Origin: an uncultured Blautia sp.
GTDB taxonomy: Bacteria > Bacillota > Clostridia > Lachnospirales > Lachnospiraceae
Assembly: GCA_946557785.1 (NCBI GenBank)
Contig: CAMNTH010000016.1
Location: forward strand, 1-64,000
Direction: 5' to 3'
Length of the DNA: 64,000 nucleotides
This document shows, piece by piece, positions 242-61,329 of the stretch. Position 1 is the first letter of the stretch, and each line of letters starts with the position of its first letter. The notes beneath the pieces were generated by a model. That model did not search any database. It was not told the DNA's origin and worked only from the letters and a program-made list of their open reading frames with translations. Both the position numbers and the translations under genes were made by a program.

Positions 242-2297
242 TTATCTGTCTGAAGAAATATAATTAGGATTTTGCTTCAGTACTTGTTTCATTTCTGCTG
301 GTGCCTCTTCCTTAAATACGCGCTTCCAGGATTTCAGCAGATTCTCCGCTGTAACACATACAGGCTCTATTCCTATAAAGGATGGTGTGACTTTACCCAG
401 CAGCCCGTTTGCCGCAGCTAATGCAATTGCCTCCCCCTGTTCATAAGGGCATTGTGCACTAAGCATTTTCACCATCCCTCCCTTTGTCATATTCATGGCA
501 ACAGGATAGTCTAAATCCCCCGTCACAATTGCAATATCTGTTCTATTCACTTCAGCCAACGCTTCCATAACTTCCATGGCCGGCCCATCCCAGGAAACAT
601 AAAGAGCCTCCACTTCCGGATGATGTTTTATAAAATCCACCGTCTTTGTATACGCCTCTGTTTCAGACAAGAAATCTATCGTTCCTCTAATTCTAATCTC
701 CGGAAACTCCTCCACCAGAACCTGCTCTGCAGCATCATCCCTTTGCTGGGTAGCATAAAAGTTCCGGTCTCCATGGCGGATAACGCCCACATTTGAAAGA
801 TTATGCCTCACCATATACTCTCCAAGGCCATGCCCCATATTCCGGCCGTGAGAATGTTCATTCACGGATACGCAAGACACATAATCTTTAGCAGTTACTC
901 CGTCAGGGATATTTGTAATCAAAACTAATTTTGTTTTGCTCTTAACCGTCTCTTGAAAAGCAAGCGCAGTTTCCTCTTTATCTACCGGAAACGCAATTAA
1001 CACATCTGGTTTCAGAAACCTCAGGCTTTCCAACTGTTTGCACTGCAAATCTGCGTTAAAATGAGCATCCGTCGTTGCAATCAGAGAAATTCCCAAATCA
1101 TCAAATATTGTTTTAATTCCTTTTTTCAGCAGCTGCATCCAGGCTTTTCCCGAGTAATGCAATGAAATTGCTGCAGTATACTTTTTCTCGCGGACAGCTT
1201 CCCTTTCTGCTTCTGACAAGATCAAAGCTTCTGCACTTTCTGCCTTTTCACCAAAAGGCCCTCTGCCGATTCCGCAGGTAGATTCTCTGACATTCAGCTG
1301 AATAGGCATAACAACCGTATCCGTTTTTATGGCATTTACATTCTTCCCCTGCCCTTTTCTCTCCTCAATCCTGCCGTGGATCATTTGAAACGCTTTCTTC
1401 GCAACTTCCCCCGGCCTTTTGTCTATACATGTAATAGAAGGGGAAAACAATGCCGTCCAGGAAAAATCATTTAAGCTTACCAAGGAAAAATCTTTAGGAA
1501 TCTCAATATTATGTGCGTTAAAGTATTCCAATATGGGAAGCAGAGTAGAACCATTAGCAGCAATGACTGCAGTCGGCACGATCTCCAAACCCATCATCTT
1601 TTCCATAGCTTCAAAAACTTCACTTTTTTTATTCAAATTCGAAAAATAAATTTCCGGATTCAATGGAATATGATAATCTTCCAATGCTTTTTTGTAGCCT
1701 GAAAAGCGTTTTGTGGAAAAATCCTGAAAGCTTCCCAAAAACGCAATATGTTCATGTCCATTTTTGATTAAGTGTTTCGTCGCTTTATAGGCACCATCAA
1801 AAGTGTCTAATACAATCAGATCAGCTGTTACACCTTCAATCCCTCTTCCTAAAAAAACCACCGGAATGTCACATTCCCTGAAAAAATCTTTATTTAATGC
1901 ATCATCTTCATCTGCAAAAGCAATCATCCCTGCAAAATTCAGAGAATCCAAAAGCAAATTTTTAATAAGCTCAAGCCGTTCGTGATCTTTATCATATACA
2001 ACTGTAAACAGCTTATAATCTTCTTTTTTAGAAATCTCATCCAGCGCTTCTTCCACTTGGTGCTGAAATTCACTATCCTTTTCAGATATCAAATACAGTA
2101 TATTCTTTTTTTGACAGCGCGCTCTGACTATTTTGATTCTTTTTCGCAATAAAATTAGGCAGTTCATCTAACTGTTGTATAGCAGCCTCTACCCTATTGA
2201 CCAATTCCGGACTAACATAGCGTGTACGATTCACCACATGCGACACTGTAGATGTAGATACCCCCGCTATTTTTGCGATATCGTGTATTGTTGCCAT
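242..2297 (-). pseudogene. LacI-type regulator fused to a second sugar-binding domain, split by a frameshift at an A7 run
   Basis: The start is the ATG at 2297, eight bases after GGAGGGG. The first frame encodes a LacI helix-turn-helix (MATIHDIAKIAGVSTST) and hinge up to about 2085. After seven A's (T7 at 2106-2112 on the plus strand) the reading frame must move +1 to join a long frame ending at 242. That frame holds a LacI-type periplasmic-binding-protein domain (about 290 residues), then a second RbsB-like sugar-binding domain (about 300 residues). Ordinary LacI proteins have one such domain and about 330 residues; this would be about 680. Removing one A gives a continuous LSKKNILYLI join. 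The gene is therefore a recent pseudogene, a homopolymer phase switch, a transcriptional-slippage gene, or a sequencing error. Next to it lies a ruined sugar permease, so its original target may be gone. Confidence 0.75.
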
Positions 2298-2457
2298 CAT
2301 CACCCCTCCATTTAATTCAATATCATTATACTTTTCCATCAAAATTATGTTAATTAAATTTGCGCAATTCCAACAGTTAAAGTTTTTCTATAATGATTAT
2401 AATTGATAACGATTAAATACTCAATATCTTTAACATACAGCGCCCCAGTCAGAACCT

Positions 2458-2729: not shown

Positions 2730-3494
2730 TTATAATACAGAGTCAATCAGCTGTTTCGTGTATTCAGACTTAGGGCTTTGGATAACCTTATCCGGTGTAC
2801 CGGATTCTATGATCTTTCCCTTGTACAACACCAGCACCCTGTCGCAGACAGCCTGCATAAGCGCCAGATCATGGCTGATAAAAATAATCGAAAGCTTCTC
2901 CCTTTCCTTCATTTCCAGAAGCAGCTCTGCAATCTGTTTCTGCACAGTCACATCCAGGGCGCTGGTAGCCTCATCACAAATAAGAATATCCGGCTTTACT
3001 GCCAGCGCCCTTGCAATAGCTGCCCTCTGGCATTGTCCGCCGCTGACCTCATGGGGATACTTTCCTGCAAATTCCGGTGTAAGTCCGCAGGAGATCAGCA
3101 ATTCGTCCACCTTTTTCTTTGTTTCTCTTCGACTTATCCCCATATTGCGGAGACTTTCCCCAATTCCATCCCCTAATGTACGGCGGGGATCAAAGGACTC
3201 TGCCGGAAGCTGAAATACCATCTGGATTTTCTTGCAGGATTTTCGCAGTTCCTTTCTTTTTTGTCCGGTAAGTTCTTTTCCCAAAAGGAATACCCTGCCT
3301 TTTGTAGGCTCTGTAAGCCGGGTGATAAGTTTGGCAATGGTACTTTTTCCAGATCCTGATTCCCCCACAAGACCCAGGCACTCTCCTTTTCTCAGCACAA
3401 AACTAATATCATCCACTGCAGTCACTATATTTTTTCCAGAACGGAATTCTTTCTTTAAATGTTCCGTTTCTAAAACCGTCCCTGCCTCATACAT
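2730..3494 (-). CDS. Nickel/dipeptide-type ABC transporter ATPase (DppF/NikE-like)
   Basis: This 254-residue ATPase is the second energising subunit of the importer encoded here. Visible motifs are Walker A GESGSGKST (near residue 45), Q-loop MVFQ, signature VSGGQ, Walker B ILICDEAT and the switch His in FISHDLAL. It is shorter than DppF (about 330) because it ends soon after the switch region and lacks the usual C-terminal oligopeptide-transporter extension, as NikE does. Its ATG overlaps the previous ATPase gene by eight bases, with GGAGGG upstream, so the two are translationally coupled. It is the last gene of the operon. Substrate cannot be read from this subunit. Confidence 0.9.
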   Translation of the reverse strand: MYEAGTVLETEHLKKEFRSGKNIVTAVDDISFVLRKGECLGLVGESGSGKSTIAKLITRLTEPTKGRVFLLGKELTGQKRKELRKSCKKIQMVFQLPAESFDPRRTLGDGIGESLRNMGISRRETKKKVDELLISCGLTPEFAGKYPHEVSGGQCQRAAIARALAVKPDILICDEATSALDVTVQKQIAELLLEMKEREKLSIIFISHDLALMQAVCDRVLVLYKGKIIESGTPDKVIQSPKSEYTKQLIDSVL

Positions 3495-4308
3495 TCCATT
3501 CCCTCCATTGCCCCAAATCCGGTTCCCTGCGCAAATGCGGCACGGATTCCATCAGGCATTTGGTATAGGCATTATCAGAATGATGAAGAACCTCATCGGA
3601 AGAACCGTAATCCACTGCTTTTCCGTTTTTAATTACCAAGACCTTGTCTGCCATAGCGCCGATGACACCGATATTATGGCTGACCAGGATCATCGCTGTC
3701 TGAAATTCCCTGCGCATCAGCTTCATTTCCTCCAGAACCTGTTTCTGTACAGTCACATCCAGAGCACTGGTAGGCTCGTCTGCCAAAAGAAGGGAAGGAT
3801 TCAAAAGCATGGCTGTACAGATTCCGACTCTTTGATTCATCCCTCCGGAAAGCTCAAAAGGATAGCTGTTCAGTACTCTTTCATAGTCCACCATACCGAT
3901 CTTTTTCATCAGAGCGCCTGCCCTGGCATATGCTTCCCTCTTTTTCAGTTTTTTCTCATGTTCTGTAAGGCTTTCATAAATCTGGGCGCCGATTTTCCGG
4001 ATGGGACAAAAAGCCGATCTGCAGTCCTGAAATATCATGGCAATCTCCGAACCATAGAGCTTCCGCTGTTCTTTTGGCCTCACATCTATGATATTCTGCC
4101 CCTTATAATAAATATCTCCCCCGGTAACTTCTCCGCTGTTTCCTAAGCTTCCCATAATAGCTTTTACAATGGTGCTTTTGCCGCTGCCGGATTCCCCCAC
4201 GATTCCCAAGGTTTGTCCCTGAACCAGCTCAAAGCTTATATCTTCCACAGCCGGCTTGCCATTATAGCAAACTGTCATATGCTCTACCCTCAGCAAGGGT
4301 TCCATCAT
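3487..4308 (-). CDS. Nickel/dipeptide-type ABC transporter ATPase (DppD/NikD-like)
   Basis: This 273-residue ATPase pairs with the downstream DppF/NikE-like subunit to power the importer. It has Walker A GESGSGKST, Q-loop MIFQ, signature LSGGM, Walker B LLLADEPT and the switch His in LVSHNIGV. The start ATG follows GGAGAGAGACG. The signature reads LSGGMNQR, typical for DppD/NikD rather than DppF/NikE. It lies 21 bases downstream of the binding-protein gene, in the same operon. Confidence 0.9.
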   Translation of the reverse strand: MMEPLLRVEHMTVCYNGKPAVEDISFELVQGQTLGIVGESGSGKSTIVKAIMGSLGNSGEVTGGDIYYKGQNIIDVRPKEQRKLYGSEIAMIFQDCRSAFCPIRKIGAQIYESLTEHEKKLKKREAYARAGALMKKIGMVDYERVLNSYPFELSGGMNQRVGICTAMLLNPSLLLADEPTSALDVTVQKQVLEEMKLMRREFQTAMILVSHNIGVIGAMADKVLVIKNGKAVDYGSSDEVLHHSDNAYTKCLMESVPHLRREPDLGQWREWNV

Positions 4309-4329: not shown

Positions 4330-5895
4330 CTATTCTGCCTGCTCTTCAATCTTAAGGTCTGCCGTAATTTCATAATAATCACAAGGATGCGCACCGATTC
4401 CGGTAACATTAGCTTTGGTCACGATTCCCATATTTAAATGGGACACAAAGAAAACAGCGCTTTCGTCCAGCATGGCCTGCTGCATCAAAACGGCAAGCTC
4501 TCCTCTTTTTTCGCTTTCAAATTCCGAATGAAGCTGCCTGTACAAAGCTTCCACGTCACCAATGGTATGATTGGAGCGATTCTTTACAGAATTCTCCAGT
4601 GCACATGTGGTAAAGAAATACTCCGGATCTCCGGTGGGAGCAGTAGTAAGGGAGCTCACATACACATCATATCCTCCGTTTTCAAGAAAACCGTTATAAT
4701 CCGAGGTACAGTTTACATCCACCTCAATTCCAATCTCCTTTAATGTTGCCTGGGCATATTCCGCAAGCTTTGGAAGCTCCAATCGTCCTGGATAAGTAAG
4801 CCAGCGCACACTCAGCTTCTGTCCGTCTTTATCCAGATACCCATCACCATCCGTATCCTTCCAGCCTGCATCCTTAAGGATTTCTTTTGCTCCTTCCGGA
4901 TCATAGCCTGGCACAGTCACGGCCTTGTTTCCATAGCTGAAGCTGTCTGGAAATGCTGCATCTGCGGGAATTCCTCTCCCGTTCATTAACACGCTGCAAA
5001 ATCCTTCCTTATCGATTCCCATGGTAATTGCTTTTCGTACAGCCTCTTCCTGCATGATCTCCGAGTCAAAATTGAACTGTCCGAAAAAGCAGCGGCTTGT
5101 GGCACAGGACCAAATAGCATATTCCGGATTTCCCTCAAAAAGTGCATAGCTGTCGTAAGCAAGCCCGTAGGTTCCCTGAATATCTCCTGTCTGAAGAGAT
5201 GCAGCCAGAGAGCTGGCGTCACCAAATGTCTTTACCACAACATTATCTACATTCACCTCTCCTCCCCAGTAGTTTTCATTTTTTACAAGGTCGATCTGAG
5301 TTTCTGTTACATTCTTTGCAATATAAGGGCCTGTTCCCGCAACATTGGCAGTTCCATTCGTATCTCCTTCTACGCCTTCCCTGCCAAAGGCCATATCAAT
5401 AATGGCGCCATATGGATCCCCAAGGTAATGAATCAGGGAAGGACATGGTTCTTCTGTATAAATCGTAACTGTCATTCCCTTTGCTTCAATATGATCAATT
5501 TTTAAATCACCGGCAGCACGGTCATGTACAGCAGTAAGATGTTCCAAACATTCCTTCACAGCTTCCCCATCCATTGTCCGCCCGCTGGAAAATTGGATAC
5601 CCTCCCGAAGGGTAATTTTTACCGTTTTATCGTCCACAAACTCATATCCTTCTGCCAGCCAGGGTTCTATCTCCATATTGTCATTATATTTAAACAGCGT
5701 TTCCCCCACCCCGTACCGAATGGCGCTCCATCCGGAATAACTGTAGTGGGGATTCAGCCCCTCGTCTCCCATTTCTACCCCATATCCTGTGGTTCCGTAT
5801 ACAAAGGTGCTCCCTCCCTTTGCCCATACAGGCGCAGCACATACTGCCGCAGTCAATACACTTACTGTCAAAACTCCCAAGATCTTCTTCTTCAT
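4330..5895 (-). CDS. ABC transporter substrate-binding protein, family 5 (DppA/NikA/OppA-like)
   Basis: A 521-residue extracellular solute-binding protein that would deliver the substrate of this importer. The frame is open further upstream, but the ATG at 5895 has AAAGGAG at good spacing and begins a clear signal peptide (MKKKILGVLTVSVLTAAVC followed by APVWA). Family 5 landmarks are the early LNPHYSYSGW segment, AGTGPY, and the late DPEYFFTTC loop. There is no good lipobox cysteine; cleavage after VWA is more likely, which is unusual for a Gram-positive binding protein, normally a lipoprotein. Neighbouring permeases and ATPases match the nickel/dipeptide class, but family 5 proteins bind peptides, opines, metal-chelates and sugars, so the ligand is open. 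Confidence 0.88.
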   Translation of the reverse strand: MKKKILGVLTVSVLTAAVCAAPVWAKGGSTFVYGTTGYGVEMGDEGLNPHYSYSGWSAIRYGVGETLFKYNDNMEIEPWLAEGYEFVDDKTVKITLREGIQFSSGRTMDGEAVKECLEHLTAVHDRAAGDLKIDHIEAKGMTVTIYTEEPCPSLIHYLGDPYGAIIDMAFGREGVEGDTNGTANVAGTGPYIAKNVTETQIDLVKNENYWGGEVNVDNVVVKTFGDASSLAASLQTGDIQGTYGLAYDSYALFEGNPEYAIWSCATSRCFFGQFNFDSEIMQEEAVRKAITMGIDKEGFCSVLMNGRGIPADAAFPDSFSYGNKAVTVPGYDPEGAKEILKDAGWKDTDGDGYLDKDGQKLSVRWLTYPGRLELPKLAEYAQATLKEIGIEVDVNCTSDYNGFLENGGYDVYVSSLTTAPTGDPEYFFTTCALENSVKNRSNHTIGDVEALYRQLHSEFESEKRGELAVLMQQAMLDESAVFFVSHLNMGIVTKANVTGIGAHPCDYYEITADLKIEEQAE

Positions 5896-5966
5896 GTTTT
5901 TTTCTCCTTTGCTTTCCAAGCACTTCATTTTCTGCAGGTCCTTTTTTGTTTTTTCCGTAAATCCCT

Positions 5967-6776
5967 TCATCTGTATTTTGGATCCAGATAATCCCGCAAG
6001 GCATCTCCAAGCAGATTAAACACTATTACCGTTACAAAGATCGCCCCGCCAGGTGCAAGCACCATCCATGGAGCAGTCTGAAGAAGCACCCGTCCGTCAT
6101 TTATCATGCTTCCCCATTCGGCCATAGGCGGTTTTACACCAAGGCCCAAAAAGGACAGACCTGCAAGTTCCATCATCATTGTCCCAATATCTAAAACTGC
6201 AGTTACCAGAATGGGGCCTGCAATATTGGGCAGAATATGCTTTACCTGAATTTTCCATAAAGAACTCCCTGAAAGCCGGGACGCCATCACATAATCGCTT
6301 TCCTTGTGCGTCATGGTCAGGCTTCTGGACAGGCGAGCAAATTTCGGCCAGCTTATTACTCCCAGGGCGAGGATGGCATTTTGCACTCCCCCTCCCAGCA
6401 TTCCTGCCACTGCAAGGGCAAATACCAGGCCTGGAAATGCCAGAAACACATCTGAAATACGCATCAGAACCGTATCTGTTTTTCCGCCCCGCCATCCGCA
6501 TATCATTCCAACGAAGGTTCCAAAAACAGCAGTAGCAGTAACCAGAATAAGCGCCGCAAAAATACTTACGGTACTCCCCATAATGATCCGCGACAGCATA
6601 TCCCTTCCGTAGCGGTCTGTTCCCAAAGGATGTGCCGCTCCAGGCGGAAGCTGAGCCTCCAGAAGATTCTGTTCATAGGGGTCATAGGGACAAAGATAAG
6701 GGGCAAAAACTGCGATCAGCACAAGCCCTGCCCCAAGTGCCAGAAAAAAAGCAAGCCTTGCTTTTCTTTCATTCAC
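5967..6776 (-). CDS. Nickel/dipeptide-type ABC transporter permease (DppC/NikC-like)
   Basis: Inner-membrane permease of about 269 residues with a short cytoplasmic start, an early membrane helix (LAFFLALGAGLVLIAVF), the family motif HPLGTDRYGRDMLSRI, and the ATPase-contact loop near MASRLSG. A GTG at 6776, eight bases after GGAGG, is the likely start; a TTG at 6791 is also in frame but lacks a ribosome site. The GTG overlaps the stop of the preceding permease by eight bases, so the two subunits are coupled. It forms the membrane channel with the DppB/NikB-like protein. Confidence 0.9.
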   Translation of the reverse strand: MNERKARLAFFLALGAGLVLIAVFAPYLCPYDPYEQNLLEAQLPPGAAHPLGTDRYGRDMLSRIIMGSTVSIFAALILVTATAVFGTFVGMICGWRGGKTDTVLMRISDVFLAFPGLVFALAVAGMLGGGVQNAILALGVISWPKFARLSRSLTMTHKESDYVMASRLSGSSLWKIQVKHILPNIAGPILVTAVLDIGTMMMELAGLSFLGLGVKPPMAEWGSMINDGRVLLQTAPWMVLAPGGAIFVTVIVFNLLGDALRDYLDPKYR

Positions 6777-7716
6777 ATCTGTCACCTCCAAGCCTTACCC
6801 GGGGATCCAGATAATAATAGAACAGATCCGTTATCAGGTTCACTGCAACATAGATTACGGCCATCCACACTACATAGGCCTGAATAACCGGATAATCCCG
6901 CATGTTAATGGCATCCACTGCCAATTTCCCCACGCCGTCCCACATAAAAATATTTTCCACAATTGCAGTTCCCCCAAGAAGGCTTCCAATAGACAGGGCA
7001 AGCAGCGTAATAATGGTTAACATAGAGGACTTTATCACACTTTTCCGGAGGATCACGCTTTGCCGAACCCCCCTGGCTTTTGCTCCGGCCACATAATCCT
7101 TATTCAGTTCCTCCAGAACTGCAGCCCTCACCTGCCTTGTATATTTGGATGTCATGGAAATGGCCAGCGTCAGTGTAGGAAGGATCAGGCTCACGGCTTT
7201 ATTCTCATTGGTAATCACAGGAAGCCAGCCAAGCCTTATGGATAAAAAATACATCAGCACCAGCGCCACGAAAAAGTTAGGCATGGAATTACCTGTAAAG
7301 CAAAAAAACCGTATTACATAATCAATCCAGCCATTGTGCTTCACTGCAGTGAAAACGCCCAAAGGAATGGAAACTGCAATGGTAAGCAAAATCGAGGACA
7401 AGGTCAGCAAAAGCGTAGCCGGAAGCTTGGATAGAAAGGTTTCCAGTACATCTTTATGGGAAACATAGCTTTCTCCCATATCCCCTCTAAGCATATTGAA
7501 AAGCCAGTTCCCATACTGCACCAGAAAGGGCCTGTCCAATCCATACTGTGCCTTTGTCTTGTCTATGATTTCCTGGGAAACCGCCGTACCGGTATTGTCA
7601 TATAAATAAGTGACTGCGTCTCCCCCTGCCGCCCTCATCAGTGCAAAGGATAAAAAGGTAATCCCAAGAAGAATCGGAATCAAATGCAGCAATCTTTTCA
7701 CAATATATTTTCCCAT
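6769..7716 (-). CDS. Nickel/dipeptide-type ABC transporter permease (DppB/NikB-like)
   Basis: A 315-residue membrane permease. The N-terminus MGKYIVKRLLHLIPILLGI and the motif QYGLDRPFLVQYGNWL are hallmarks of DppB/NikB/OppB. Later come a TGNSMPNFFVALVLMY helix and the EAA-like loop with RQVRAAVLEELNKDYV and AGAKARGV. The ATG follows GGAGTAGAC and lies two bases after the stop of the deacylase-methyltransferase gene, which ties uptake to that enzyme at the level of translation. Length is normal for the family. Confidence 0.92.
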   Translation of the reverse strand: MGKYIVKRLLHLIPILLGITFLSFALMRAAGGDAVTYLYDNTGTAVSQEIIDKTKAQYGLDRPFLVQYGNWLFNMLRGDMGESYVSHKDVLETFLSKLPATLLLTLSSILLTIAVSIPLGVFTAVKHNGWIDYVIRFFCFTGNSMPNFFVALVLMYFLSIRLGWLPVITNENKAVSLILPTLTLAISMTSKYTRQVRAAVLEELNKDYVAGAKARGVRQSVILRKSVIKSSMLTIITLLALSIGSLLGGTAIVENIFMWDGVGKLAVDAINMRDYPVIQAYVVWMAVIYVAVNLITDLFYYYLDPRVRLGGDRCE

Positions 7717-7718
7717 GT

Positions 7719-9428
7719 CTACTCCGTTTTCTTCGCCTGCAGCAAAAACATAGGAGTAGGATTGTAAAACTCATCCTTTTCCCTGTAGATTCTGCCGCTG
7801 ATACCAAGATCAATAGAAAATTCCCAAAGCCCCATCCGTCCCAAAGTCTCCAGATCCCAGGCAGGACGGCTATAGGAACTGATAGGAAGCTGGCGTTTAA
7901 TTTCCTCACACTCCCGCATCATATCCTCTCCCACTGTATGGTGAGCATGGGCTTTGGGAAGCCCCGCCGTATCCCCAAAATTGCTCATGCCATAATTGGC
8001 ATCAAAATTCAGCAGGAGCCCGCCCTTTTTCAACACACGGATCCACTCTTTGTACGCATGTTCTACATGAGGAAGGGTCCAGGTCAGGTTTCTGGTAACA
8101 ATCACATCAAAAAGCCCATCTTCAAAATCAAGATTCTCTGCGTCCATTAGAAGAAAAGTACAGGAAACACCCTCCTCTTTTGCCAGCATCCTGGACTTCT
8201 CCACCATCTCAGGGGTCAGGTCCGTTCCAGTCACATCATGGCCCTGCTTTCCAAGCAAAATGGTAAAAAAACCTGTTCCGCAGCCTACATCCAGAATTTT
8301 CAATTTCCGTCCTGAAGGAATATACTTCCCCATTTCCTGAAGCCATCGCCCTGCCATAGGACTGTGAAGCTCTGCCCTTCGCTGGGAAAGAAAGCTTTCG
8401 CTTCGTTTCCCCCAGTATCTTACGATCCGCTCCTTACGTTCATCATATTCTTTTACAATACGGCCATAGGCAAGCATCGGGCCATCTTCCAATACCTGCA
8501 GTGTCTTGGTCTGATACAGGATCACACCGTCAAACTCTGCAGTACTTACTTCCTTCACATTCCCCTCATAATCCCGAACCTGTCCAAGGATTTCCCCTTT
8601 GCGGATCATATCTCCTGCCCTTTTCCTGGGATACCACAAACCGCCAAAAGCAGCATCCTGGTAGCGTACGTCTGTCACATCCAGAGGATAATAGGTCCGA
8701 TAGTCTTTGATCCCCTGATAAACCCCAAGGTGGCAGAGAATATTTCTTACATCACGTCTTGTAGACCTGGCCTCCTCGCCGCTCCACATTCCCATGCCGC
8801 CCCGTTCGATCAGAATACTTGGGATTCCAAGGGAAGCTGCATAATTGTAAGCTCCGCCGGATGCCACATTGGATCTTACCATATAAGGAACGTCTACCTG
8901 CTCCGCCATCTGTCTGGAAACAGCTGCTACATTCTCGTCTGCCTTTCCTGCATAATAAACATATGGCGTCAATTCCTCATAATCATCTCCGCTGTGCAGG
9001 TCTATGCAGTAATCCACCATGGGAAAAACCTCCCTGGTAATGGCAGCTGCCAGGCGCTCCATCTCTGTTCCCTTTTCATTTCCAGGGAAAACCCTATTGA
9101 GATTTTTGCTGTCTGTAAGCCCCAGGCTTCCCTTTCTCTCCTCAAAAGCAGGTCTGTTTATTACTTTTATAAGCACAATGGTTCCTGCAATCTTTTCTAT
9201 TTTCAATTTCTCCGCCAGTTCCACACAAGCCTGTATTCCCACATATTCCCCTGCATGGATACCAGCCATGATAAGTACTGTCTTCCCCGGCAAAGCTCCG
9301 CAGAGAATGGAGGCAGGAAGCTCAAACTCCCCGCCTCCCACCTTCAGCAAACCATTTATCCGTTCCCCCGGCTCTGCAGTCATACCGCATAATTGAAATT
9401 TTTCTTTCTGTTTATCCAAATGTTCCAT
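7719..9428 (-). CDS. Fusion of AstE/AspA-type deacylase and SAM-dependent methyltransferase
   Basis: A 569-residue cytosolic protein with two enzymes in one chain. Residues about 15-325 are a succinylglutamate desuccinylase/aspartoacylase-type zinc hydrolase (M14 fold). The zinc ligands are His58 and Glu61 (IHAGE) and His145 (DLHSGD), the carboxylate-binding motif is NLNRVFPG (109-116), and a likely catalytic Glu is at 209 (ILIERGG). Residues about 335-569 are a class I methyltransferase with motif I LDVGCGTGFF near 379-388 and VTRNLTWTLP further on. The second half is clearly paralogous to the separate methyltransferase encoded just upstream. By family the first half removes an N-acyl group from an amino acid-like substrate; the methyl acceptor is unknown. 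Its position between a methyltransferase and permease genes suggests that it modifies the imported compound or a related metabolite. I know of no characterised fusion of this kind. Confidence 0.85.
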   Translation of the reverse strand: MEHLDKQKEKFQLCGMTAEPGERINGLLKVGGGEFELPASILCGALPGKTVLIMAGIHAGEYVGIQACVELAEKLKIEKIAGTIVLIKVINRPAFEERKGSLGLTDSKNLNRVFPGNEKGTEMERLAAAITREVFPMVDYCIDLHSGDDYEELTPYVYYAGKADENVAAVSRQMAEQVDVPYMVRSNVASGGAYNYAASLGIPSILIERGGMGMWSGEEARSTRRDVRNILCHLGVYQGIKDYRTYYPLDVTDVRYQDAAFGGLWYPRKRAGDMIRKGEILGQVRDYEGNVKEVSTAEFDGVILYQTKTLQVLEDGPMLAYGRIVKEYDERKERIVRYWGKRSESFLSQRRAELHSPMAGRWLQEMGKYIPSGRKLKILDVGCGTGFFTILLGKQGHDVTGTDLTPEMVEKSRMLAKEEGVSCTFLLMDAENLDFEDGLFDVIVTRNLTWTLPHVEHAYKEWIRVLKKGGLLLNFDANYGMSNFGDTAGLPKAHAHHTVGEDMMRECEEIKRQLPISSYSRPAWDLETLGRMGLWEFSIDLGISGRIYREKDEFYNPTPMFLLQAKKTE

Positions 9429-9440
9429 CCTCTCTCTTCC

Positions 9441-10208
9441 TTATTTCACGCCTGTCACCAAAAATACAGGGGTGGATCCATTGTTTATGATCTCCTCTTT
9501 TGTCCACACCTTTTTCCAAACCTCACGGTCGCATGACACATCGGAAAAACCTGCTTTTTTCATAGCTGCCAGATCCCACTTGGGCCTTGACATTTTACTT
9601 AAAGGCACCTGTCTTGCAATTTCTTCCATTTTGTCGTTGTCTGTATTTCCGTAATAATCCACAAACTCTTCCTCTTCCACCTTTTTTCTGTCTGCCTCAT
9701 AGGCGGCACGTTTCTTTTCATCAAAAAGGTGCCCATACCAGTCTGCATCAAAGTTCAGGAGAATCCCCCCATTTTTCAGCACGCGGTACCATTCCTCATA
9801 TGCCCTTCCCGGATCCGGGAGATTCCATGTTACATTTCTTGTCACCACTGCATCAAAGCTGCCTGTTTCAAGTTCCAGGTTCTGGGTGTCCCCAACACAC
9901 CATTGAATCTCTTCCTCCAGACTTCCGGCATTTCCCCTGGCTTCCTTCAGCATTTCGTCTGTATAATCCACAGCAGTCACCTGGTATCCTGCCTCAGCAA
10001 GCAAAATGGCAAAAAATCCAGGACCGGTTCCCACATCCAAAACCCTGATCTCCTCTGGCTTTTTTCCCGGAAACCCATTTGTCAAAAGTTCCAAAAGCTC
10101 TCTTTTCCACAGGATGCGTCTCTCATCTGCCATTTCCTGTTGATTATATTCCGAATAACCGGACGCCCGTTTCGTCCAGTAATGATAAATCTCTTCCTTT
10201 AAATTCAT
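9441..10208 (-). CDS. Class I SAM-dependent methyltransferase, first gene of the importer operon
   Basis: A 255-residue cytosolic methyltransferase. Motif I is LDVGTGPG (57-64), followed by VTAVDYTDEML (acidic ribose-binding loop) and the motif VTRNVTWNLP. The same signatures (VTRN.TW.LP, LLNFDA, SRP.WDL, TP.FL) occur in the methyltransferase half of the next gene, so the two arose by duplication. The ATG at 10208 lies eight bases after AGAGG; a TTG 24 bases upstream is less likely. Only 12 bases separate it from the fusion gene. The UbiE-like fold does not predict the substrate. Confidence 0.88.
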   Translation of the reverse strand: MNLKEEIYHYWTKRASGYSEYNQQEMADERRILWKRELLELLTNGFPGKKPEEIRVLDVGTGPGFFAILLAEAGYQVTAVDYTDEMLKEARGNAGSLEEEIQWCVGDTQNLELETGSFDAVVTRNVTWNLPDPGRAYEEWYRVLKNGGILLNFDADWYGHLFDEKKRAAYEADRKKVEEEEFVDYYGNTDNDKMEEIARQVPLSKMSRPKWDLAAMKKAGFSDVSCDREVWKKVWTKEEIINNGSTPVFLVTGVK

Positions 10209-10250
10209 AACCCAAACCTCTTTTATCCTCAATTTGTATTATTCCATTCT

Positions 10251-10300: not shown

Positions 10301-10332
10301 CAAAAAAAGAAGACGCCCCCTGAAAGGGCATC
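10301..10332 (-). terminator. Intrinsic terminator after the NlpC/P60 gene
   Basis: On the minus strand GATGCCC, a short loop and GGGCGTC form a GC-rich stem (10312-10332), followed by TTCTTTTTTT. It lies 26 bases past the stop of the NlpC/P60 gene and just before the palindrome and promoter of the importer operon, so it insulates the two units. Confidence 0.8.
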
Positions 10333-10357
10333 TCCCTGTAATCATATCAAATCTTTA

Positions 10358-60800: not shown

Positions 60801-61329
60801 AATATTTAGACCTCCTATCTGGATTTAGGCAAGCAGAGCTTACCTATGTAACAGCCAGACACAAGGAAGTGTTTAAGGTCGAGAGAGCATTAACAAAATC
60901 TCTGTTCTTATGACCGCCTTATATCTGGCTTTATGATAGAAGCATCTCAATTTGTCCTCGACATCCCGAAATGCAATGTGCTTATAAAGCACAGGGAAGT
61001 CGCCAAACGGTCAGCAGCGAACTGACGCCACAGGAGTTCCACCTCTCTGACGGTCTGCCAGAGCCGCCCTCATTGCCTGTGACGGGTTGGATACCGTTCG
61101 GACTGTGACTGGACGGGAGTACCATTGTTCTCTTTGTGGGTTATGGCGAAATCGGGAGCTGCCCGATATTTTGAGTCGGTATTTGACCGCTCACCACCTT
61201 TCATCGCTATTCTGCTATCGGCAGGTCATGGCGTACCGCTGCACACGCTTATGCTCATCACAATCACAAAGAGGAAGTATTTGGCGAATGAGTATTCGGT
61301 TGTCAAGGAACTGTGAGAAGTCCGTAGAA
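60801..61329. other. Noncoding stretch in the mobile element
   Basis: About 530 bases without a convincing gene. On the minus strand TTGACA with CAAATA (near 61280-61310) could be a promoter for the toxin-recombinase unit. Inverted segments are present (for example TGTGCTTTATAAGCACA at about 60977-60995), suggesting structured leader RNA. Nothing else could be assigned. Confidence 0.4.

Follow-up and report, generated by a model that had tools for sequence, protein, structure and literature searches.

The first 64,000 nucleotides of contig CAMNTH010000016.1, from an uncultured Blautia sp. (hereafter the window), carry a seven-gene operon in which two paralogous methyltransferases and a deacylase are joined to an importer of the ATP-binding cassette (ABC) type. 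The operon appears to be an acquisition module for nickel, possibly also for cobalt, and the import of nickel is well supported. We infer that its enzymes act on the ligand of the metal; for the methyltransferases this is because two unrelated ABC classes, both importing metal-organic complexes, share the enzyme. We give a probability of roughly 0.6 to the core of this reading, a nickel module in which the methyltransferases work on the metal's ligand; the first of the alternatives discussed below shares that core. Gene order, the fusion, importer class, the linkage of methyltransferase to importer genes, their co-occurrence across genomes and the association with nickel enzymes are established as far as sequence comparison can do so; the identity of the ligand and the order of the steps are guesses.

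The window lies on contig C16 of a 3.17 Mb draft genome (G000). Nearly end to end, the seven genes occupy 10208 to 2730 of the minus strand, with 12, 2, −23, −4, 21 and −8 bases between successive genes. The operon begins with MT1 (9441..10208, 255 aa; an alternative TTG start is possible at 10232), a class I S-adenosylmethionine (SAM)-dependent methyltransferase. It is followed by a 569 aa deacylase-methyltransferase fusion (7719..9428), in which an AstE/AspA-type zinc hydrolase domain (residues 1–330; 8439..9428) precedes a second methyltransferase domain, MT2 (residues 331–569; 7719..8438). The importer consists of a NikB/Opp2B-type permease (6769..7716, 315 aa), a NikC/Opp2C-type permease (5967..6791, 274 aa), a NikA-like substrate-binding protein (4330..5970), a NikD/CntF-like ATPase (3487..4308, 273 aa) and an OppF/NikE-like ATPase (2730..3494, 254 aa), with which the operon ends.

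Both permeases score above NCBI models for nickel permeases (Opp2B, NF045470, 368.3 bits against a cut-off of 350; Opp2C, NF045474, 310.7 against 300). By sequence, the best PDB matches of the binding protein are 3t66, 4ofj, 3rqt and 2noo, all nickel-binding. A Foldseek search with its predicted model (predicted local distance difference test, pLDDT, 89.6) places 4xkr, 3rqt, 3t66 and 2noo first; the matches include Staphylococcus aureus NikA with Ni-(L-His)(2-methyl-thiazolidine dicarboxylate), Bacillus halodurans NikA and a mutant NikA (2noo), and S. aureus and B. halodurans NikA are the nearest relatives. Other binding proteins come lower in the list, and because peptide binders are among them, fold alone cannot settle the ligand. 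In the close clade of the binding protein H75 is present in 23/23 and H528 in 21/23 sequences, which is suggestive of metal ligands; where S. aureus NikA has the arginine of its IPRGDTGYF stretch, the window protein has a Thr. The internal ATG at 5895, from which a signal peptide can be read by eye, is the probable start of the binding protein. The ATPases match the general ABC_tran model with 101 bits (3487..4308) and 113 bits (2730..3494); their best NCBIfam matches, all below the cut-offs, are CntF 244, CntD 240, OppD 235 and NikD 223 bits for the former and OppF 252, DppF-type 242 and NikE 220 bits for the latter. The initial annotation left the importer as an unspecified peptide or opine type; the Nik/Opp superfamily assignment stands, but the permease models and the NikA-type relatives make a nickel importer very probable, and nickel would be the physiological metal in this strain. 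Compared with NikABCDE and the S. aureus Opp2 importers, the window operon differs in its two methyltransferases and its deacylase. To our knowledge, the nickel import systems of Escherichia coli and S. aureus have neither.

The enzymes have their own signatures. PF24827 (AstE_AspA_cat) matches residues 47–233 of the fusion with 102.2 bits (cut-off 25) and PF08241 (Methyltransf_11) residues 379–473 with 87 bits (cut-off 21.2), and MT1 also reaches 87 bits with PF08241. The fusion has HAGE at residue 58, NLNR at 109, DLHSG at 143, ERGG at 208, VTRNLTW at 444, LLNFDA at 472 and SRPAWD at 520; the corresponding motifs of MT1 are VTRNVTW at 122, LLNFDA at 150 and SRPKWD at 207. H58, E61, N109 and H145 are invariant in 14 aligned fusions, and E208 is at least 90% conserved; we take H58, E61, H145 and E208 to be the zinc ligands and the catalytic Glu of AstE/AspA hydrolases. 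MT1 and MT2 are 36% identical and both are of the class I Rossmann type, with the glycine-rich SAM motif D.G.G invariant in 18 aligned rows. None of the curated NCBIfam methyltransferase cut-offs was passed among the best 25 of 49 and the best 25 of 45 matches of the window proteins. The deacylase domain has as its best NCBIfam match TIGR02994, the N-acetyl-diaminobutyrate deacetylase DoeB, a member of the AstE/AspA superfamily that is also among its PDB relatives; it differs in being fused to a methyltransferase, and at 105.8 bits it falls far below the DoeB cut-off of 402.7. The initial annotation described the fusion, the paralogous methyltransferase and the importer as one operon, and this arrangement is real, as both coordinates and motifs hold.

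The fusion is found in 13 of 299 genomes of the family to which the window's genome belongs (its own family), the window's included, with at least 54% identity over at least 530 residues, and its occurrence there is therefore more than chance. One further relative, the only one from a scan of genome contigs, is in a metagenome-assembled genome (L032). In 4 of the 14 aligned loci MT1 is fused as well, giving MT1-deacylase-MT2 proteins of 813–856 aa, and because of these triple fusions the three parts probably serve one process. A methyltransferase tree of 94 rows separates an MT1 side (95/90) from an MT2 side (94/80). On it the C-terminal domains of the 14 fusions group with only two other rows (100/99; 16 rows in total). 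Two other genomes encode two-methyltransferase proteins of 497 and 495 aa whose second half sits inside the fusion group, and a loss of the deacylase is therefore likely in these. Four rows labelled MT2 by best match lie on the MT1 side, two of them first halves of the double proteins. Genome G102 holds an intact fusion and, at another place, a broken second copy with stops inside (G102:C1:1438853-1443249), near a window-type permease. In L033, L036, L039 and L041 a LysR-type regulator adjoins the fusion and is a candidate nickel- or ligand-responsive regulator.

The linkage of the methyltransferases to metal importers extends well beyond the fusion. Surroundings were fetched for 40 own-family places, for 40 from a scan of the phylum, and for 20 further own-family places (19 beyond the first 40 of the own-family list, plus G261:C18, which is in both scans). 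The own-family loci are the best matches of the fusion search rather than a random draw. A locus was counted if its methyltransferase match had at least 100 bits, and called linked if a Nik/Opp- or FecCD-type permease of more than 50 bits lay within 5 kb. Seven of the first 40 own-family loci have a deacylase and no methyltransferase, which leaves 33; L153 and L156 of the phylum loci fall below 100 bits, which leaves 38, several of them sharing one genome (e.g. four from G612). An importer permease was present at 41/53 own-family loci (24/33, all Nik/Opp type, and 17/20) and at 24/38 other phylum loci (19 Nik/Opp, 7 FecCD, 2 both), compared with 0/40 control stretches (Fisher p 1e-15 and 1e-10, for related loci that are not independent). 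For the controls, generic Methyltransf_11 genes were taken with their surroundings from eight of these same genomes; the stretches hold 41 of 44 places whose position was judged to put them outside the family, and four of the stretches do not reach 11 kb. Two further places in G133, near a family locus, were left out as borderline. A coarser gene map shows a same-strand importer gene within 300 bases at 30/54 own-family and 27/39 other loci. The initial annotation considered that the methyltransferases might lie just as often near unrelated transporters, and the counts of 41/53 and 0/40 do not bear this out; a linked system of import and modification, with the two methyltransferases as partners, is supported, as is the metallophore that was offered as an alternative.

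The initial annotation also placed the fusion at the centre of the system. The fusion is real, but the methyltransferases are the core, because a deacylase is within reach of only 17/53 own-family and 0/38 other phylum methyltransferase loci. At L052, L058 and L068 separate AstE/AspA deacylases (37–40% identical) adjoin other Opp importers, with no family methyltransferase, and the hydrolase may there serve a different purpose.

Methyltransferase and importer also occur together at the genome level. Own-family genomes with the methyltransferase (40 of 44, four less complete ones having been dropped) were compared with 40 hand-picked ones without it, in which the profile search found 0/40 and the same model was positive in G000 and G261. 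The clade of the window's permease (E ≤ 1e-80) is present in 36/40 genomes with the methyltransferase and in 0/40 without (Fisher 2.5e-18); the four that lack the permease are G185, G215, G148 and G004. G058 and G136 do encode the permease, at a site away from the methyltransferase gene. Nickel enzymes follow the same division: catalytic carbon monoxide dehydrogenase (CODH) in 26/40 against 3/40 (one of the three below the curated cut-off; p 9e-8), urease in 13/40 against 1/40 (p 7e-4) and LarC in 39/40 against 25/40 (p 1e-4). CODH is found in 10 of 11 fusion genomes tested, and the window's genome has CODH and LarC; urease was not found in it. The clearest nickel context is L203:5814-14506 (genome G037), where a divergent methyltransferase from the MT1 side of the tree and a Nik-type importer are followed by larE-larB-larC, whose products exceed the NCBIfam cut-offs for nickel pincer cofactor synthesis. 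DUF4198, presumably the NikK family, is encoded near 6/38 phylum loci and 0/40 controls, and FmdE-like genes near 2/53 own-family loci, 3/38 other loci and 0/40 controls.

A tblastn search of plasmid records with MT1 gave 143 records, and the surroundings were viewed in 11 chosen by hand. In a chromosome-sized record of Proteus mirabilis H63, a methyltransferase 47% identical to MT1, which groups on the MT1 side of the tree, stands directly before NikA-, NikB- and NikC-type genes, and an ATPase lies farther along. This NikA passes TIGR02294 (626 against 393 bits). The locus differs from the window operon in having one methyltransferase, no deacylase and a NikA of the E. coli type. Nik and Ynt are presented, in the relevant part of PMC11026637, as the two nickel importers of P. 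mirabilis that feed urease. Homologues of 26–36% identity in Paracoccus, Ensifer sp. PDNC004 and on pSymB of Sinorhizobium meliloti 1021 come last in operons that consist of a cobalamin riboswitch followed by genes for a BtuF-like binding protein, a FecCD-type permease, an ATPase and the methyltransferase. The pSymB methyltransferase gene, at 69552-70331, begins 3 bases past the ATPase gene, and its product is 32–36% identical over part of its length. The portion of PMC7689651 on CbtJKL describes a BtuF-like, riboswitch-controlled cobalt importer on S. meliloti pSymB; the locus, in a record that carries no gene names, is probably CbtJKL, judging from these shared features, and unlike the window importer would be of the BtuF/FecCD class and serve cobalt. 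Homologues also stand beside FecCD importers, with no riboswitch match, in Shinella, Ensifer canadensis, Marivivens and a second S. meliloti copy, and in the archaeon Natronococcus the homologue adjoins nikB/nikC. No NCBIfam match of the Proteus (best 25 of 29) and S. meliloti (19/19) homologues was over its cut-off. Two of the cobalamin-riboswitch operons have a pseudoazurin gene between importer and methyltransferase (L111:5545-5973, L113:5528-5965), which is odd for a cobalt system.

If the operon imports nickel, it is quite probable that the methyltransferases serve the chelate. How they might do so can be viewed in two ways. The importer would carry the metal into the cell as a complex with a small organic ligand. 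In synthesis, the deacylase would unmask the amine of an N-acyl amino-acid-like precursor, MT1 and MT2 would methylate the unmasked precursor to give a chelator, and the chelator would leave the cell, bind nickel and come back via the importer. Synthesis fits because of this unmasking chemistry and because of the way opine metallophore clusters are composed: in the section of PMC7438024 that treats them, they have Opp/Nik-like or FecCD importers, sometimes extra methyltransferases and, in one lineage, a MATE exporter. The staphylopine and pseudopaline (Cnt) systems resemble the window operon in these features, but the operon has no exporter and no enzyme of the nicotianamine-synthase family was found in 18 genomes. 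Opine dehydrogenase (PF10100) was found in 0/40 genomes, in a search in which no control genome was positive.

Alternatively, the same nickel importer may be served by enzymes that work after import and, by methylation and in this lineage also by cleaving an amide, alter the ligand so that the metal is let go in the cytoplasm. Esterases free the metal from some siderophores after import in a comparable way. Release fits because exporters are scarce: the enzymes, by eye without signal peptides, usually accompany an importer and rarely an exporter. In addition, one methyltransferase together with an importer suffices in the Proteus and pSymB operons, and the hydrolase is fused to a methyltransferase. 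However, deacylation usually exposes a donor amine, which by chemical reasoning would give a better chelator rather than a worse one, and five loci, not counting that of the query, have a MATE type (37–50% identity) close to the methyltransferase, compared with 22–30% identity in the controls, a hint only. Granted that nickel is imported and that the chelate is what the enzymes serve, synthesis is mildly favoured and is placed slightly ahead of release. Standing alone, the synthesis of a chelator is a tentative proposal, short of even odds, and release is possible at a somewhat lower level of belief. The order of import, deacylation and methylation put forward in the initial annotation is unsupported, and a ligand made before export is at least as likely.

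Exporter-type ABC genes lie near 8/53 own-family and 5/38 other loci and 1/40 controls, some of the matches being weak (24–28%). Exporters were rejected as proof of secretion, since MATE genes are also near 4/40 controls. At L206, L209, L215 and L216, paired exporter-type ABC half-transporters of ~500–590 aa lie directly beside family methyltransferases; these loci also hold Nik- or Fec-type importers, and two of the four a MATE exporter. The pairs could be metallophore exporters or importers. A recurring hydrolase theme (M20 peptidase and amidohydrolase genes near L040, L049, L070 and L153) was dropped: three M20/amidohydrolase queries found no counted locus with one within 5 kb, a weak test in which the source genes of L040 and L070 lie more than 5 kb off and L153 is outside the counted set.

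Several observations weigh against a nickel module that makes or modifies the ligand of its metal. The binding protein misses the curated NikA cut-offs by a wide margin (NF045468 Opp5A_nikA, 302.3 against 600 bits; nickel_nikA, 182.8 against 393), for which reason it is called NikA-like only. Among the seven genes of the operon there is neither an exporter nor a backbone-forming enzyme, and MATE exporters are not clearly enriched (6/53 own-family loci against 4/40 controls). Nicotianamine synthase (PF03059) was found in 0/18 genomes, G000 included, with a positive control in Methanosarcina acetivorans and with the limit that a divergent CntL could escape the model; with this working control the known opine chemistry is unlikely here. 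Twelve of the 53 own-family and 14 of the 38 other phylum loci are unlinked; 2/9 of these in the first batch and 7/14 in the phylum lie near the end of a contig or fetched stretch, and L144, L146, L150 and L152 among the latter 14 have a DUF4198 gene nearby. The 5 kb limit also admits distant Opp permeases: nine of 12 fusion loci are linked, three of them (L034, L037 and L039) through a distant permease (~28–42% identical), with the window-type one farther off. LarC is common in genomes without the methyltransferase as well (25/40), and no importer is near the homologues on two plasmids of Selenomonas, of the phylum Bacillota, and one of Halorhabdus.

Perhaps the methyltransferases serve nickel homeostasis and do not touch the imported ligand, their substrate being, e.g., a cytoplasmic nickel store, a toxic by-product or a protein. 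A fold search with the predicted model of MT1 (pLDDT 94.5) is uninformative on the class of substrate: of 1269 matches at E ≤ 0.001, the best 50 have template modelling (TM) scores of 0.47–0.63, normalised to the query, and act on many different substrates, with no hint among those 50 of the substrate of MT1. Some genes of the family also have no importer nearby. A homeostatic role is nonetheless unlikely, given that the importers linked to the family belong to two unrelated ABC classes and that different metals are involved, nickel in Proteus and cobalt on pSymB. The import of an N-acylated nutrient or peptide that is then deacylated and methylated, with nickel incidental, which the initial annotation took for the main purpose, is highly improbable and not supported, as the nickel permease models were passed, NikA is the best relative, nickel enzymes are associated with the methyltransferase and the deacylase is not core, even if the AstE/AspA domain keeps its conserved catalytic residues, the importer lies within the peptide/nickel superfamily, peptide-binding proteins are present in the fold list and separate deacylases adjoin other Opp importers.

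Control of the operon and its immediate neighbourhood can be described briefly. A terminator-like hairpin (10307..10337, minus strand; 14 pairs and a T tail) lies between the upstream gene and the operon and separates the two, a role that draws its weight mainly from position, as the window has nine terminator-like sites against 7.2 ± 2.8 expected. The single promoter proposed in the initial annotation is not sustained, since promoter-like matches are no commoner than in shuffled sequences (10 against 12.2 ± 3.6). An Rfam scan of the whole window gave one match, a pemK RNA (RF02913, 50.3 bits, 61028-61128, minus strand) far from the operon, and no riboswitch for the operon, so that riboswitch control was dropped. 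NiCo or cobalamin riboswitches at the gathering threshold also numbered 0 in the own-family loci L033–L036. Beyond the end of the operon, the minus strand at 2380-2690 has by eye a remnant of a sugar ABC permease, and 242-2310 (minus strand) encodes a LacI-like regulator of 641 aa with two sugar-binding domains (Peripla_BP_3 and Peripla_BP_4). By eye, a LacI-type DNA-binding start is just upstream of this regulator and outside its open frame; in the one frame translated upstream of the gene, no DNA-binding start was seen.

The ligand with which nickel passes through NikABCDE-type and cobalt through CbtJKL importers is an old open question. PDB titles for NikA speak of a 'putative endogenous metal chelator', and the account of CbtJKL in the relevant portion of PMC7689651 names no ligand. 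In the open-licence PMC literature we found no account of a methyltransferase family linked to nickel or cobalt importers, and an earlier mention of a neighbouring methyltransferase in subscription papers is possible. It might be supposed, doubtful as so broad a claim is, that the methyltransferases define an unrecognised class of nickel or cobalt metallophore. In bacteria and archaea alike, one or two small enzymes would then make a chelator, amino-acid-like and methylated, that NikABCDE- or CbtJKL-type importers take up again. If true, such a metallophore would supply the ligand so far lacking for importers that have long been regarded as carriers of bare metal or of metal-histidine. The pairing of methyltransferase and importer suggests an undescribed step in the chelation and uptake of nickel and cobalt by cells. 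With members of the family in a tractable S. meliloti operon and in the Proteus Nik locus, the question of the ligand becomes testable, and in the family of the window's genome the answer would be relevant to the nickel supply of anaerobes that have CODH.

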